Assembly: GCF_002001105.1 (NCBI RefSeq)
Contig: NZ_MUNP01000021.1
Coordinates: 1 to 64,000, forward strand
Length of the DNA: 64,000 nt
From: Rhodanobacter sp. C06
GTDB taxonomy: Bacteria > Pseudomonadota > Gammaproteobacteria > Xanthomonadales > Rhodanobacteraceae
Reading direction: 5' to 3'
Shown: positions 10,930 through 59,481 of the stretch, in pieces
How the letters are laid out: every line of letters begins with the position of its first letter
How positions within the stretch are numbered: the first letter of the stretch is position 1
Position numbers and translations under genes: made by a program
Notes under the pieces: generated by a model
The model's database searches: none
What the model saw: the letters and a program-made list of their open reading frames with translations, nothing else
What the model was told of the DNA's origin: nothing

Positions 10930-12252
10930 CTAGATCACCACGAGATCCGCGTGCAGCGCGCCGGCCTGCTTCAGCGCCTGCAGGATCGAGATCAGGTCGC
11001 TGGGCGAGGCGCCCACCTGGTTCACCGCGCGCACGATGGTGTCCAGGCTCACGCCCGGGCCGAACTTGAACATGTGGCCGCCCTCCTCGCTGACCTGCAC
11101 GTTGCTGGACGGCACCACCGTGGTCTGGCCGTTGCTGAATGGCGCCGGCTGGCTGACCAGCGGCTGCTCGCCGATCGTCACCTGGATCGCGCCATGCGCC
11201 ACGGCGGCCGCCGAGACGCGCACGTCCGAGCCGATCACCACGGTGCCGGTGCGCGAGTTCACCACCACGCGCGCGGGCGGCGCGCCCGGGGTCACGTCCA
11301 GGTCCTGGATCGTGCCCAACCAGGCCACCTTCTGGGTGGGGTCCTGCGGCACGCGCACTTCCACCGTGCCGCCATCCACCGCGCGCGCGGTGCCCGCGCC
11401 GTAGGTGCGATTAATCGTGCCGACGATGCGCGTGACGGTGGTGAAGTCCGGCGTGTTGAGGTTCAGCCGCAAGTCGTCGCTGGAAGCGAATGCGGACGCC
11501 ACGCTGCGCTCCACCGTGGCACCGTTCGGGATGCGCCCGCTAGCCGAGATGTTCTTCTGCACGCTGGAGCCGCTCTTGCCCGACGCGCTGATGCCGCCCA
11601 CCACCACGCTGCCCTGCGCCACCGCGTAGACGTTGCCGTCGGCGCCGCGCAGCGGCGACATCAAGAGCTCGCCGCCGCGGATGCTCTTGGCGTTGCCGAT
11701 CGAGGCCACGGTGACGTCGATGGTCTGGCCCGGCTTGGCGAACGGCGGCAGTTCGGCGGTGATCGTCACCGCGGCCGCGTTCTTCAGCTGCGGGCGAACG
11801 TTCGCCGGCACGTTGATGCCGAACTGCTGCAGCATGTTCTCCAGGCTCTGCGTGGTGAACGGCGCCTGCGTGGTCTGGTCGCCCGAACCGTCCAGGCCCA
11901 CTACCAGGCCGTAGCCGATCAGCTGGTTGGAGCGCACGCCGCCGACCGATGCGAGATCGCGGATCTTGTCGGCGTGGGCGGGAGTGGCGAGCAGGGCAAA
12001 GAGTGCGATGGCAAACCCGATCGCCGCGGATTTTTCTCCCTCTCCCCTTTGGGGAGAGGGCCGGGGTGAGGGGCCGGGCTTGCGGAAGAGGTTGGAGAAA
12101 CGAGCAAAGAGCGAAGCCAAAGCAGCGCCGCGCGAGCGTGTCCCCTCTCCCCAACCCTCTCCCCGGAGGGGAGAGGGGGCGAACGTGCCGTGCGGGTTCG
12201 CGATGCCGGACTTCGGTGCAACCGTCATAGTCGTGGCCATATGGATGTTCAT
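10930..12252 (-). CDS. flgI: Flagellar P-ring protein FlgI with a repeat-extended leader
   Basis: The P-ring subunit of the basal body, exported by Sec to the periplasm. The mature part starts at [11 protein letters not shown] and is 346 residues, the normal length. In front of it lies a typical hydrophobic core and cleavage site ([14 protein letters not shown]), but the leader before that is unusually long: about 94 residues in all, of which some 48 ([12 protein letters not shown] to PSPQRGEGE) are encoded by the palindromic repeat at 12034-12179. No ATG, GTG or TTG start lies between the repeat and the hydrophobic core, so translation must pass through the repeat. The start is uncertain: ATGs at 12252, 12240 and 12228 are in frame and none has a good ribosome site. 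The gene begins 2 nt after flgH ends. Whether the long leader is still a working signal peptide is open. Confidence 0.9.
12034..12179. repeat. Palindromic repeat pair inserted in the flgI leader
   Basis: Two hairpins face each other. The first is CCCTCTCCCC/GGGGAGAGGG with loop TTT (12038-12060). The second has the same arms with loop GGA (12155-12177). Between them are GGGGTGAGGGG-type sequence and a CTTGCGGAAG core. A close copy lies at 57503-57652 in ppc, sharing the arms, the GTGTCCCCTC stretch and CTTGCGGAAG. The paired-hairpin architecture is that of REP doublets (REPIN/BIME-like) normally found between genes; here it is inside a coding frame and keeps it open. Confidence 0.85.
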
Positions 12253-22888: not shown

Positions 22889-23026
22889 GCGAGGCGCTCT
22901 TCAACAGCGAAGCTGGTCATCCAGTGTCTTTGTGTTCAATGGCTTGAAAGCCACTGGATGACCAGCTTCGCTGTTGTGAAGCGTCTCCTGCTTGACCAGC
23001 CCTCCCGCTGTTGAAGAGTGCCTCGC
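22889..23026. repeat. MITE-like nested palindromic element, 138 bp
   Basis: The ends are a 21-bp inverted repeat (GCGAGGCGCTCTTCAACAG... at 22889-22909 against 23006-23026) with one mismatch. Inside is a second, perfect 25-bp inverted repeat (22902-22926 and 22952-22976, core GAAGCTGGTCATCCAG) around a 25-nt loop. No coding frame is contained. It fills the gap between two convergent genes and may also stop transcription from both sides. No second copy is seen in the window. Confidence 0.8.
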
Positions 23027-31017: not shown

Positions 31018-31046
31018 TTGACTTTGGCCGTCTGTACGGCTAATTT
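31018..31046 (+). promoter_or_regulatory. Sigma-70 promoter of metE
   Basis: TTGACT, a 17-nt spacer and TAATTT form a good housekeeping promoter. Transcription would start near 31053, just before the cobalamin riboswitch. Confidence 0.7.
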
Positions 31047-31058
31047 TCACAACGCTCA

Positions 31059-31244
31059 AGGTAACTATCTCTTCATGCGAATGAAGAGATATCTCAAGGG
31101 AAGCCGGTGCGAATCCGGCGCTGCCCCGCAGCGGTATGTGGAAACGACCTCCGTCACCGGCACTGGGTGCAACACGCCCGGGAAGCGACGGACAGTAGGC
31201 GGCCGACACTTTGCCGGTCACGTCCACGAGCCCGAATACCTGCC
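31059..31244 (+). promoter_or_regulatory. Cobalamin (B12) riboswitch upstream of metE
   Basis: The conserved core is clear: GGGAAGCCGGTGCGAATCC (31098 on), then CGCTGCCCCGCAGCGGTA, and at the 3' end GAGCCCGAATACCTGCC. AGGTA (31059-31063) pairs with TACCT (31237-31241) as P1. The 11-bp stem at 31066-31091 with a GCGA tetraloop takes the place of P2. Adenosyl- or methylcobalamin would switch off the B12-independent synthase when B12 is available, the known logic for metE. The expression platform lies in the 200 nt before the start codon, where the hairpin at 31388-31405 is a candidate. Confidence 0.93.
31066..31091. promoter_or_regulatory. Perfect palindrome at the metE transcript start
   Basis: Half-site TATCTCTTCAT, centre GCGA, then its exact reverse complement. 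It lies 13-38 nt past the predicted transcript start. The same half-site pattern and 4-nt spacing recur at metF (63181-63206) and, degenerate, at metK (33888-33913). It could therefore be a repressor operator for methionine-cycle genes. It also fits as stem P2 of the riboswitch, so the two readings compete or coexist. Confidence 0.5.
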
Positions 31245-31387
31245 TCGGCCGGAAGCGGCACGCCGCTTCCGCACGACCTGGCATCTCCGTGGGGAGGGCC
31301 GGAGCCCGCGCGCTGCCGCCCCCACGGCCCGCGCTGGCTTCGCCTGCCCGCGCCGCCGGTTCGCCCGCGGGGGCGAAGGTCAACGGC

Positions 31388-56334: not shown

Positions 56335-59187
56335 TCAGCCCGTATTCTGCAAGCCCTGCGCCACACCGTTCACGCAAGCCACCAGCGCCTGCAGCAAGGC
56401 GTCGTCCTGCCGATCGCCGGCGCGCCAGCGGCCGAGCAGGTCCACCTGCAGCAGGCTCATCGGATCGATGTAGGGATTGCGCAGGCGGATCGAGGCGGCG
56501 AGGCGCGGATCGCCCCGCAGCAGTTCATCCGCGCCCTTGAGCTTGAGCACCCAGGTACGGCTGCGCTCGAACTCGGCGCGGATCAGCGCGAAGAACGGTT
56601 CGTGCAGTTCGCCGGCCAGCCGCGAGAAGGCCTCGGCGATGGCGAGGTCGCACTTGGCCAGCAGCATCTCCACGTCGTCCAGCGCGTTGGCGAAGAACGG
56701 CCAGTCGCGCGCCATCCCAGCCATGGCTTCTTCGCCGTACTCGGCCACGCCCCATTCCAACGCGCTGCCCAGGCCGTACCAGCCGGTGATGATGGAGCGG
56801 CACTGCGTCCAGGCGAACACCCAGGGGATCGCGCGCAGGTCTTCCACGCCGCGCATACTGCGCCGGCGCGAGGGGCGCGAGCCCAGTGCCATGCGCTCGA
56901 TCACGTCGATCGGCGTGGCGCTGCGGAAGTAGTCCACGAAACCTTCGCGCTGGACCAGCGCGCGGTAGGCCTGCCGGCTGCGCGCGGACAGTGCGTGCAT
57001 GCGTTCGCGCCACTGCGTTTCGCGTTGATCCTCCTCGCGCGGGCGCAGGCTGGCGCGCAGCACCGCGCCCACGGTCTGCTCCAGGTTGCGCAGGGCCAAC
57101 GCGCGGATGCCGTACTTGCGATGGATCACCTCGCCCTGCTCGGTGACGCGCAGCACACCCGCCACCGAACCGCGCGGCGACGACAACAGTGCCGGCGTGA
57201 TGCGCGCGCCGCCGCGACTGGCCGAACCGCCGCGGCCGTGGAAGAAGGCCAGCGCGATGCCGTGCTCGCGCGCCACGTCCAGCAGTTCCACCTGGGCGCG
57301 CTGCAGGCTCCAGCGCGAAGCCAGCGTGCCGCCGTCCTTGCCGCTGTCGGAGTAGCCCAGCATCACCCACTGGCGGTCGCCGCGGGCGGCCAGGTGGCCG
57401 CGATACAACGGATCGGCCAGCAAGGCGCGCAGCGTGGCCGGTGCATTCGTGAGATCGTCGATGGTTTCGAACAGCGGGGCGACGTCCAGTGGAACCACTG
57501 TATTTCCCTTCTCCCCGTTGGGGAGAAGGTGGCCCGAAGGGTCAGATGAGGGGCGGGTGCTTGCGGAAGCGCTGGTGGTGGTGGCCGCAACGTCGACAGA
57601 TTGCGGCGAAGGTGTCCCCTCACCCCGACCCTCTCCCCGGAGGGGAGAGGGAGACAGCAGGCCGCCATGCCTTGCCAGCGCCAGCACCGCCAGCACGTCG
57701 GCGGCGGAGCGCGCCATGCTGATGATGTAGAGGCCGGTCGCAGCGGTGCCGTAGCGCTGGCGCGCATCGCGCAGGGCGGCGAACACGGCGCGCAACGAGG
57801 TGGCCACGCTGTCCTCGCTGGCGACGAAATCGCGCTCGCCCCGCAGGTGCGCGTGCAGGGCGACCACGCGCTCGTCCACGCTGCGCTGCGACCATGCGGC
57901 GTCGTTGAACAAGGCGGCCAGCGCGTCGTCGTGCACGCGCGAATCCTGGCGCGCATCGAGCCGCGCGAGATGGAAACCGAAGCTGCGCACGCGCCAGATC
58001 AGGCGCTGCACCGCATAGGCGCCTGCATGCAGGCCGCGATGATCGACCAGGCTGGCGGCGACCAGCTCGAGATCGTCGCGCAGTTCGTCGGCACCGGCGT
58101 AGGCCTCCGGATGCCCGTCCTCGTGGGTGGCTTCCAGCCGCCCGCCGATCACGGTGAGCAGGCTGCGGTAAGGCATGTCGGCGTGGCGCGGCTTGATGCG
58201 CGAGGCGGCCTGCGGGTAGCGCACGCGCGCTTCGTCCAGCCGCTGGCGCAGGCGCGGATCGACCTGCACGCGCCCGCTGGTCTGGCTGAGCAGGCGCGCC
58301 AGCGCGGCGACGTCGCCGATGTAGCGATCCAGTATCTGCGCGCGCTGGCTGGCGAGGCTGGCGGCGATGGTGTCGGCACCCACGTTGGGGTTGCCGTCCA
58401 TGTCGCCGCCCACCCAGGTGGCGAAGGAGAGCAGGCGCGGCAGCGGCACCGCCACGCCGTAGACCGCCTGCAGCGCCTCGGCCAACGATTCGTACAGCGC
58501 CGGCACGATGCGATAGATCGGATCGGCGATGTAGAAGCCCACGTGCTCGCGCTCATCCTGCACGCTGGGCCGCAGCGGCGAAGCCTCGGCGGTCTGCCAG
58601 CCGGCGGTGAGCGCCATGTGGATGCGCTCCTCGTCCTCGCCGCGCTCCTGCGGCGTGCGGCCGCCGTCGAAGCCATCGACCAGCGCGCGCACGATGGCCT
58701 GCTCCTTCTCCAGCAGCGAGGCGCGCACCGCCTCGGTGGGATGCGCGGTGAACACCGGCTCCACCTCCAGCTTGAGCAGCCAGTCGAGCAGTTCGGGCGC
58801 AGTCACGCCCTGTGCCTTGAGCCGCTCCAGCACGTCGCGCAGCGATTCCGGCTGCGGTGCGCCGCCCGCACGCTGGTAGTCGCGGCGGCGGCGGATGCGA
58901 TGCACGCGTTCGGCGATGTTTACCGCGTTGAAGTAGGTGGCGAAGGCGCGCGCCAGCGCTTCCGCGTGCGCCGCGTCGAGCCCGCTCAGCGGATCGGCCA
59001 GTACCGCCAGCGCTGCGCCCTCCTGCCGGCGCGCGATGGCGGCGACGCGCACGCGTTCCACCTCGTCGAGGAAGGTCGGCGCCACCTGCTCGGCCAGCAT
59101 GCGACCGACCAGGGCGCCCAGCCGGCGCACGTCGTCGCGCAGCGGCGCATCGGGCAAGGCGGGCTCGGGACTGCGGGAGGCGTTCAT
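56335..59187 (-). CDS. ppc: Phosphoenolpyruvate carboxylase with a repeat-encoded insertion
   Basis: A 950-residue enzyme that carboxylates PEP to oxaloacetate. Catalytic motifs are intact: [11 protein letters not shown] with the active His, [39 protein letters not shown] and the C-terminal QNTG. About 50 residues (roughly 512-562) between ALARHGGL and [12 protein letters not shown] have no counterpart in known PEPCs and are encoded by the palindromic repeat at 57503-57652. Without them the length would be normal (about 900). The insertion falls in a loop before the conserved PLFET motif and keeps the frame. The ATG at 59187 precedes the conserved N-terminus; no strong ribosome site is seen. 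Confidence 0.94.
57503..57652. repeat. Palindromic repeat pair inserted in ppc
   Basis: First hairpin CCTTCTCCCC/GGGGAGAAGG with loop GTT (57507-57529); second hairpin CCCTCTCCCC/GGGGAGAGGG with loop GGA (57629-57651). The spacing, the GTGTCCCCTC and CTTGCGGAAG stretches, and the orientation match the copy in flgI (12034-12179). In both genes the arm is read in the frame giving [13 protein letters not shown]. Confidence 0.88.
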
Positions 59188-59324: not shown

Positions 59325-59333
59325 CGTCGCTTC

Positions 59334-59431
59334 CCGTCGAGGGGCGCTGCGACCGTTGGTGCATGCGGATCCGTCCGCAACCGCCTGCACATCCCTGTGC
59401 AGACTGCTCATCCAACGGCCAGGCTCGGCGG
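59334..59431 (+). promoter_or_regulatory. S-adenosylhomocysteine (SAH) riboswitch
   Basis: The class consensus is present: CGAGGGGCGCTGCGACCG near the 5' end and CCAGGCTCGG at the 3' end. P1 pairs CCGTCGAG (59334-59341) with CTCGGCGG (59424-59431); P2 pairs CCGTTGG with CCAACGG. Two inner stems (GCGGA/TCCGC and CTGCACA/TGTGCAG) fill the middle. SAH binding turns expression on, so the hydrolase is made when its substrate builds up. The ribosome site of ahcY lies about 40 nt downstream. Confidence 0.95.
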
Positions 59432-59481
59432 TTCCTTTCACAACGGCGCCCGGTTTGTCCCCACCAAAACCGGAGCTGCAC

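Follow-up and report, generated by a model that had tools for sequence, protein, structure and literature searches.

A dispersed palindromic element lies in frame in ppc of Rhodanobacter sp. C06 and probably forms a flexible loop of phosphoenolpyruvate carboxylase

The window analysed here is a 64,000-nt stretch of the Rhodanobacter sp. C06 genome. Its ppc coding region contains an inserted pair of palindromic units, and a sister copy lies in flgI. The relevant features, in window positions, are:

56335..59136, minus strand: coding region of ppc, phosphoenolpyruvate carboxylase (PEPC); stop codon at 56335-56337; the region as analysed begins some residues past the likely start
57503..57652, minus strand: inserted palindromic element pair in ppc, whose in-frame translation ends HLLPNGEKG
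57616..57651, minus strand: 5' unit, a TM-type hairpin with a G-rich third strand; coding sense CCCTCTCCCCTCCGGGGAGAGGGTCGGGGTGAGGGG
57507..57553, minus strand: 3' unit, an inverted variant; coding sense CCCCTCATCTGACCCTTCGGGCCACCTTCTCCCCAACGGGGAGAAGG
12035..12181, minus strand: sister element in the N-terminal region of flgI, in the PSPLRGEG phase and orientation of the ppc copy

Reading the minus strand confirmed an in-frame repeat at 57503-57652, as the initial annotation had placed it. In the reading frame of ppc, the segment consists of a hairpin, CCCTCTCCCCTCCGGGGAGAGGG, and after it GGGGTGAGGGG, a spacer and CCTTCTCCCCAACGGGGAGAAGG. In the coding sense the 5' hairpin is CCCTCTCCCC-TCC-GGGGAGAGGG, followed by GGGGTGAGGGG, and the inverted variant hairpin on the 3' side of the spacer is CCTTCTCCCC-AAC-GGGGAGAAGG.

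The ppc product scores 846.7 bits against the Pfam PEPcase profile and lies above the cut-off of NCBIfam PRK00009. The closest named record was a Rhodanobacter denitrificans MAG (90%), in a comparison from which records of the genome itself may be absent. The motifs TAHPTE, GYSDS and FHGRGGS, which we take to be catalytic, show no variation across 27 aligned homologues, as expected from the earlier claim that the catalytic motifs are intact; judged by its sequence, ppc with the element is an intact gene. Alignment with E. coli PEPC (1fiy) pairs product residues 493 and 550 with residues 495 and 499, so the extra residues occupy a short turn before the PLFET strand. The stretch from MARSAADV to PLFET is 85 residues long, compared with 36-37 in most relatives, which gives 48-49 added residues and agrees with the roughly 50 noted before PLFET in the first reading.

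An AlphaFold model of the enzyme built with 27 sequences reached a mean pLDDT of 72 and a pTM of 0.64, and a Foldseek search with it returned PEPC structures as top matches. The insert has a helix on one side and the conserved PLFET strand on the other. Residues 497-546 have pLDDT below 50, with block means of 25-39 that are the lowest of the chain. Values below 50 also occur at residues 595-609, 633-661 and 750-772 and in shorter stretches, so disorder of the insert is supported, not proved. The added loop of about 48 residues, rich in Pro, Gly, Glu and Arg, is probably floppy and would presumably be exposed at the surface, the model being without the tetramer.

The element belongs to a dispersed family. 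The pattern TCTCCCCN{1,7}GGGGAGA occurs 63 times in the 4.14-Mb genome and its reversed control not at all; the 150-mer element has at least 53 matches in the genome (40 of 129 first-look candidates scored); and the element as single-stranded DNA has a fold 4.06 SD below those of 200 shuffles and better than any of them. A chance repeat is therefore not a tenable description. An Rfam search at gathering thresholds gave no match at the ppc element.

With the pattern relaxed slightly, the fetched loci contain 62 hairpins; 61 of these satisfy the strict pattern, and the other two of the 63 strict hairpins lie outside the loci fetched. These 62 group into 41 elements, of which 21 are pairs of hairpins less than 200 nt apart. 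Inspection by eye showed the two palindromic units of the 21 paired elements in inverted orientation, and mixed pairs among the fetched loci contain several unit variants.

The genomic context was called for 40 elements, one of the 41 being left out at a contig end, from how far reading frames extend and from a codon-usage score computed on the two flanks; the score was trained on 19 long frames of the window, and weakly biased genes could be missed. In 29 of the 40 a stop codon precedes the element, at a distance of no more than 50 nt in 24 cases. Another six are read through in frame by genes that Pfam and NCBIfam identify as ppc, lhr (two sites), uvrD, murL and lpdA; the lpdA copy lies in the linker between the lipoyl and E3 domains. 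The remainder comprises one copy in the flgI N-terminus, one in the C-terminus of a TrhO-like gene and three without clear context. Thus the capture by more than one gene proposed in the initial annotation extends to six through-frame copies and two gene ends. The same element lies in frame in unrelated, intact-looking genes (ppc, lhr, uvrD, murL and lpdA), and confinement of intragenic copies to dying genes, which the annotation had named as counting against its idea, was not observed.

The flgI copy, already noted to have the orientation and phase of the ppc copy, was indeed found in the PSPLRGEG phase. It lies between the start codon and the hydrophobic core of the signal peptide, and would add about 50 residues ahead of that core. 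The copy at C77:85600 forms the last part, in frame, of a TrhO-like sulfurtransferase gene (locus L189, 909-2141, G000:C77). The last 60 or so residues of this gene come from the element; of the 280 profile positions only 1-243 are matched, and the profile tail, 244-280, is unmatched. This copy may extend or replace the gene tail, and is the single candidate for damage in the census. Another gene starts just past the TrhO-like gene.

To what extent does the repeat recur in relatives? A ppc match was found in 165 of 197 family genomes searched, and 99 loops were read, chosen for the most part by match score, with omissions and some additions, and thus not a random sample. Ninety-eight were parsed, and that of G177, which is empty, was read separately and stands outside the tree. 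The element or a remnant of it is present in 14 of the 99, so that the comparison of ppc between sister species suggested earlier yields both filled and empty loops. Most loops have a MARSAADV-PLFET stretch of 36-37 residues; where the element is present it can reach 149. Degraded copies were seen in G004, G003, G006 and G029, and that of G004 looks like two hairpins collapsed into one with the frame kept. Lengths are divisible by three in all 14 loops with the element or a remnant; the parser demanded an open frame, so being in frame is partly built in for relatives, and no loop among the 99 failed. An insert or remnant is also present in the separately assembled named records L041-L043, L046-L048, L056 and L074.

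A quick tree of the 98 ppc rows, built with the loop left out and with 53 rows filling less than half of the columns, requires 12 state changes, eight of them forced by starred branches. Three of the 12 may represent one gain and two losses, which leaves the number of gains uncertain. Empty rows separate the filled loops into five or more groups on the tree. The filled label is neither more clustered nor more scattered than in shuffles, 55 of 500 of which come out with as low a count of changes; frequent gains, or frequent losses, would be expected to give this picture. In G174 the 5' unit is read in another phase than in the remaining filled loops, and its sister G190 is empty. From these sequences, related bacteria seem to have captured the repeat in the same PEPC loop more than once.

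Similar loops were labelled by hand in two further enzymes. MurL is filled in nine of 30 rows and needs seven changes, four of them forced. Here too the label is neither more clustered nor more scattered than in shuffles, 136 of 500 reaching so few changes. The MurL gene of G048, which belongs to a different family of the order, carries a two-hairpin insert as well. For Lhr, 24 of 30 loci were parsed and 23 entered the tree, G053 being dropped for a missing motif. Twelve of the 23 are filled and require four changes, three of them forced. Only three of 500 shuffles are as low, and this clustering indicates that the Lhr copies are more inherited. G016 in Lhr and G001 in MurL stayed unlabelled because of unread bases. 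At loci L217, L220 and L261, bases on or next to the element in lhr (G016 and G001) and murL (G001) are unread, suggesting that assemblies struggle at the element in these two genes.

Hand scoring placed six of seven copies of the Rhodanobacter sp. C06 genome in the PSPLRGEG phase. Across the three genes, 26 filled loops have a readable 5' hairpin, and 22 of these share that phase in a hand tally (ppc 11/12, MurL 6/6 and Lhr 5/8), the 26 rows being related sequences and not independent events. The other phases occur in ppc of G174 and in lhr of G027, G010 and G013. The initial annotation had attributed capture to a stop-free phase. The shared phase is indeed seen in its host genome; stop codons do not account for the bias, since open strand readings of the 21 pairs are more frequent in the PLPSGER phase (25/42) than in the PSPLRGEG phase (17/42). 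With P at 0.006 or 0.06 depending on the null, the bias is only suggestive.

Genomes with a filled ppc loop have a higher hairpin load (9 versus 25 genomes, Mann-Whitney P 1.4e-4 without correction for kinship), in a test of 34 of 37 family genomes from which G011, G028 and G030 were left out for lack of a parsed loop. High loads also occur in some ppc-empty genomes (79, 79 and 42 hairpins). Comparison of the ppc copies of Rhodanobacter sp. C06 and G014 shows a 5' unit identical over all 36 positions, 4 differences among the 47 positions of the 3' unit and 23 among the 62 of the spacer; the two ppc genes differ at 79 of 499 four-fold sites. Conserved units together with a fast spacer would fit separate arrivals or homogenisation of units alike. 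The two copies have unit types and the right flank in common and ppc spacers are partly alignable, so that part of the ppc set is inherited. Six small groups in which filled loops were set against empty ones revealed no clear target-site duplication or exact junction.

Mobilisation by a Y1 transposase was not supported: G021 has 181 hairpins without a PF01797 match at E 0.001, and G002, G003, G004 and G010 have 15-23 hairpins without a Y1 transposase match. The Rhodanobacter sp. C06 genome has two PF01797 loci. At one (L040, G000:C82, about 1260-1960) the Y1 transposase gene lies between GTAG-type palindromes of another family, as judged by eye. At the other (L039, G000:C3, about 1360-2190) it lies between inverted copies of a sequence like gggtcagagtgcacttt, and no TM hairpin was seen by eye beside it.

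We directly observe the element family, its in-frame place in ppc, filled and empty orthologues, several changes along the gene tree, and a repetition of this pattern in two further genes. The explanation that we consider quite probable is insertion into ppc, with the reading frame preserved, of a copy of a dispersed element built from an inverted pair of TM-type hairpins; its translation would then give PEPC a flexible loop. The element would move by copying from elsewhere in the genome, and selection would remove disruptive copies, leaving survivors downstream of stop codons or within loops and gene ends that tolerate them. Once captured, a copy may shrink or grow by in-frame changes, for instance by two hairpins collapsing to one, and tolerant loops may recapture the mobile palindromic element. 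For PEPC the loop is probably near-neutral. A bolder version, in which the element re-enters PEPC, MurL and Lhr loops in many lineages with a phase preference set by insertion chemistry, we regard as unlikely; if it were true, one short repeat would be a standing stream of in-frame linker peptides for housekeeping enzymes.

A single ancestral insertion into the ppc loop, inherited vertically with many losses or erosions, would explain why all filled ppc copies occupy the same loop, why the 5' unit phase is identical in 11 of the 12 ppc loops with a readable hairpin, and why spacers are partly alignable and the right flank is common to Rhodanobacter sp. C06 and G014; the clustering of Lhr, with only four changes, points the same way. 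We nevertheless find it rather unlikely for the whole set, given the 12 changes (eight forced) of the 98-row tree, the other phase of G174 beside empty kin, spacers that differ at 21-28 of 62 sites in seven pairs where ppc four-fold sites stand at 0.16-0.22 from those of Rhodanobacter sp. C06, and the way in which presence in ppc tracks hairpin load. Within Rhodanobacter alone, and for Lhr, such inheritance is likely.

The segment could instead be a loop selected to regulate or stabilise PEPC, and its open frame in several species and its site, flanked by a helix and by the conserved PLFET strand, are compatible with this. Its sequence, phase and length vary (36 to 149 residues for the whole stretch) and it is absent from close relatives, which makes a selected function improbable. 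Excision from RNA or protein, in the manner of an intron or intein, would account for tolerance and has no positive evidence among our results; the absence of an Rfam match at the element at gathering thresholds, a Pfam output of PEPcase only and the many matching copies outside genes make it very improbable indeed. The draft state of the genomes and the unread bases at the element in lhr (G016 and G001) and murL (G001) could be taken to indicate an assembly or annotation artefact, a reading whose probability is close to negligible when the insert or its remnant recurs in several separately assembled named records.

The hairpin resembles a known motif. The TM/TMECO motif forms an intrastrand triplex in vitro (Holder et al. 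2015, PMC4666352), and the 36-nt 5' unit is identical to TMECO no. 18 at 34 of 36 positions. It has the C-rich arm, the G-rich arm and the G-rich third strand of the motif, and the 3' unit is a variant; we regard the hairpin as a predicted TM-type unit with a putative triplex. Inverted pairs of unlike types, as seen here, are also described in E. coli (PMC4666352). The same paper describes TM motifs in E. coli as always intergenic and without signs of mobility, whereas six of 40 elements here run in frame through genes and both filled and empty sites exist.

In-frame intragenic palindromes are known in kind, and the capture of palindromes by genes, although seen here, is not the novelty that the initial annotation implied, having been described for Rickettsia and for REPs, including those of Xanthomonas (PMC10969869, PMC3733652). 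Rickettsia palindromic elements (Ogata et al. 2000, 2002, as described in PMC10969869) are about 150 bp long and, like the present element, lie in frame in unrelated metabolic genes; they differ in sequence and host, a separation made by description, without sequence comparison. GTAG/CGTC REPs were reported in frame in housekeeping and repair genes, many of them in repair genes and UvrD/REP helicase among those hit (Di Nocera et al. 2013, PMC3733652). In the accessible sections of that paper, recB of two Xanthomonas species was struck at about the same site, and linkers or loops were proposed as neutral places for REPs; recapture in three genes across genera was not found described there. These REPs carry tags, and none was seen by eye beside the TM hairpins of Rhodanobacter sp. 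C06.

RU/ERIC small mobile repeats also occur in frame with genes (Delihas 2007, PMC2759123); they differ in being described as affecting C-terminal regions and not lying within conserved domains. Cod-2 of Corynebacterium diphtheriae, found in various genes in differing frames (Cozzuto et al. 2008, PMC2267715), is 32 nt long and belongs to another phylum. REPINs are doublets of short palindromes in inverted arrangement that lie chiefly outside genes (Bertels and Rainey 2011, PMC3116915), a layout resembled by the 21 of 41 elements that are close inverted hairpin pairs; no link to a RAYT was found here, as neither of the two PF01797 (Y1 transposase) loci showed the TM palindrome beside it by eye. 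A partial literature search, which is weak evidence, gave no report of the element in ppc, lhr or murL and no paper with the peptide GEGRGEG. New, then, would be the finding of this family inside genes and of its repeated capture by the same loops.

The result suggests that TM motifs, for which an intergenic place and no signs of mobility were described in E. coli, have the capacity to spread and to move into genes. Three housekeeping enzymes each have a loop that received insertions of this kind, beside sister species in which it is empty; in these natural replicates the movement of palindromes, the tolerance of proteins and whether loops gain function can be tested directly. Elsewhere in the window, Rfam identified SAH and cobalamin riboswitches (59333-59458 and 31042-31261), and an inverted repeat with 41-nt arms and 15 nt between them occupies 22891-22987.
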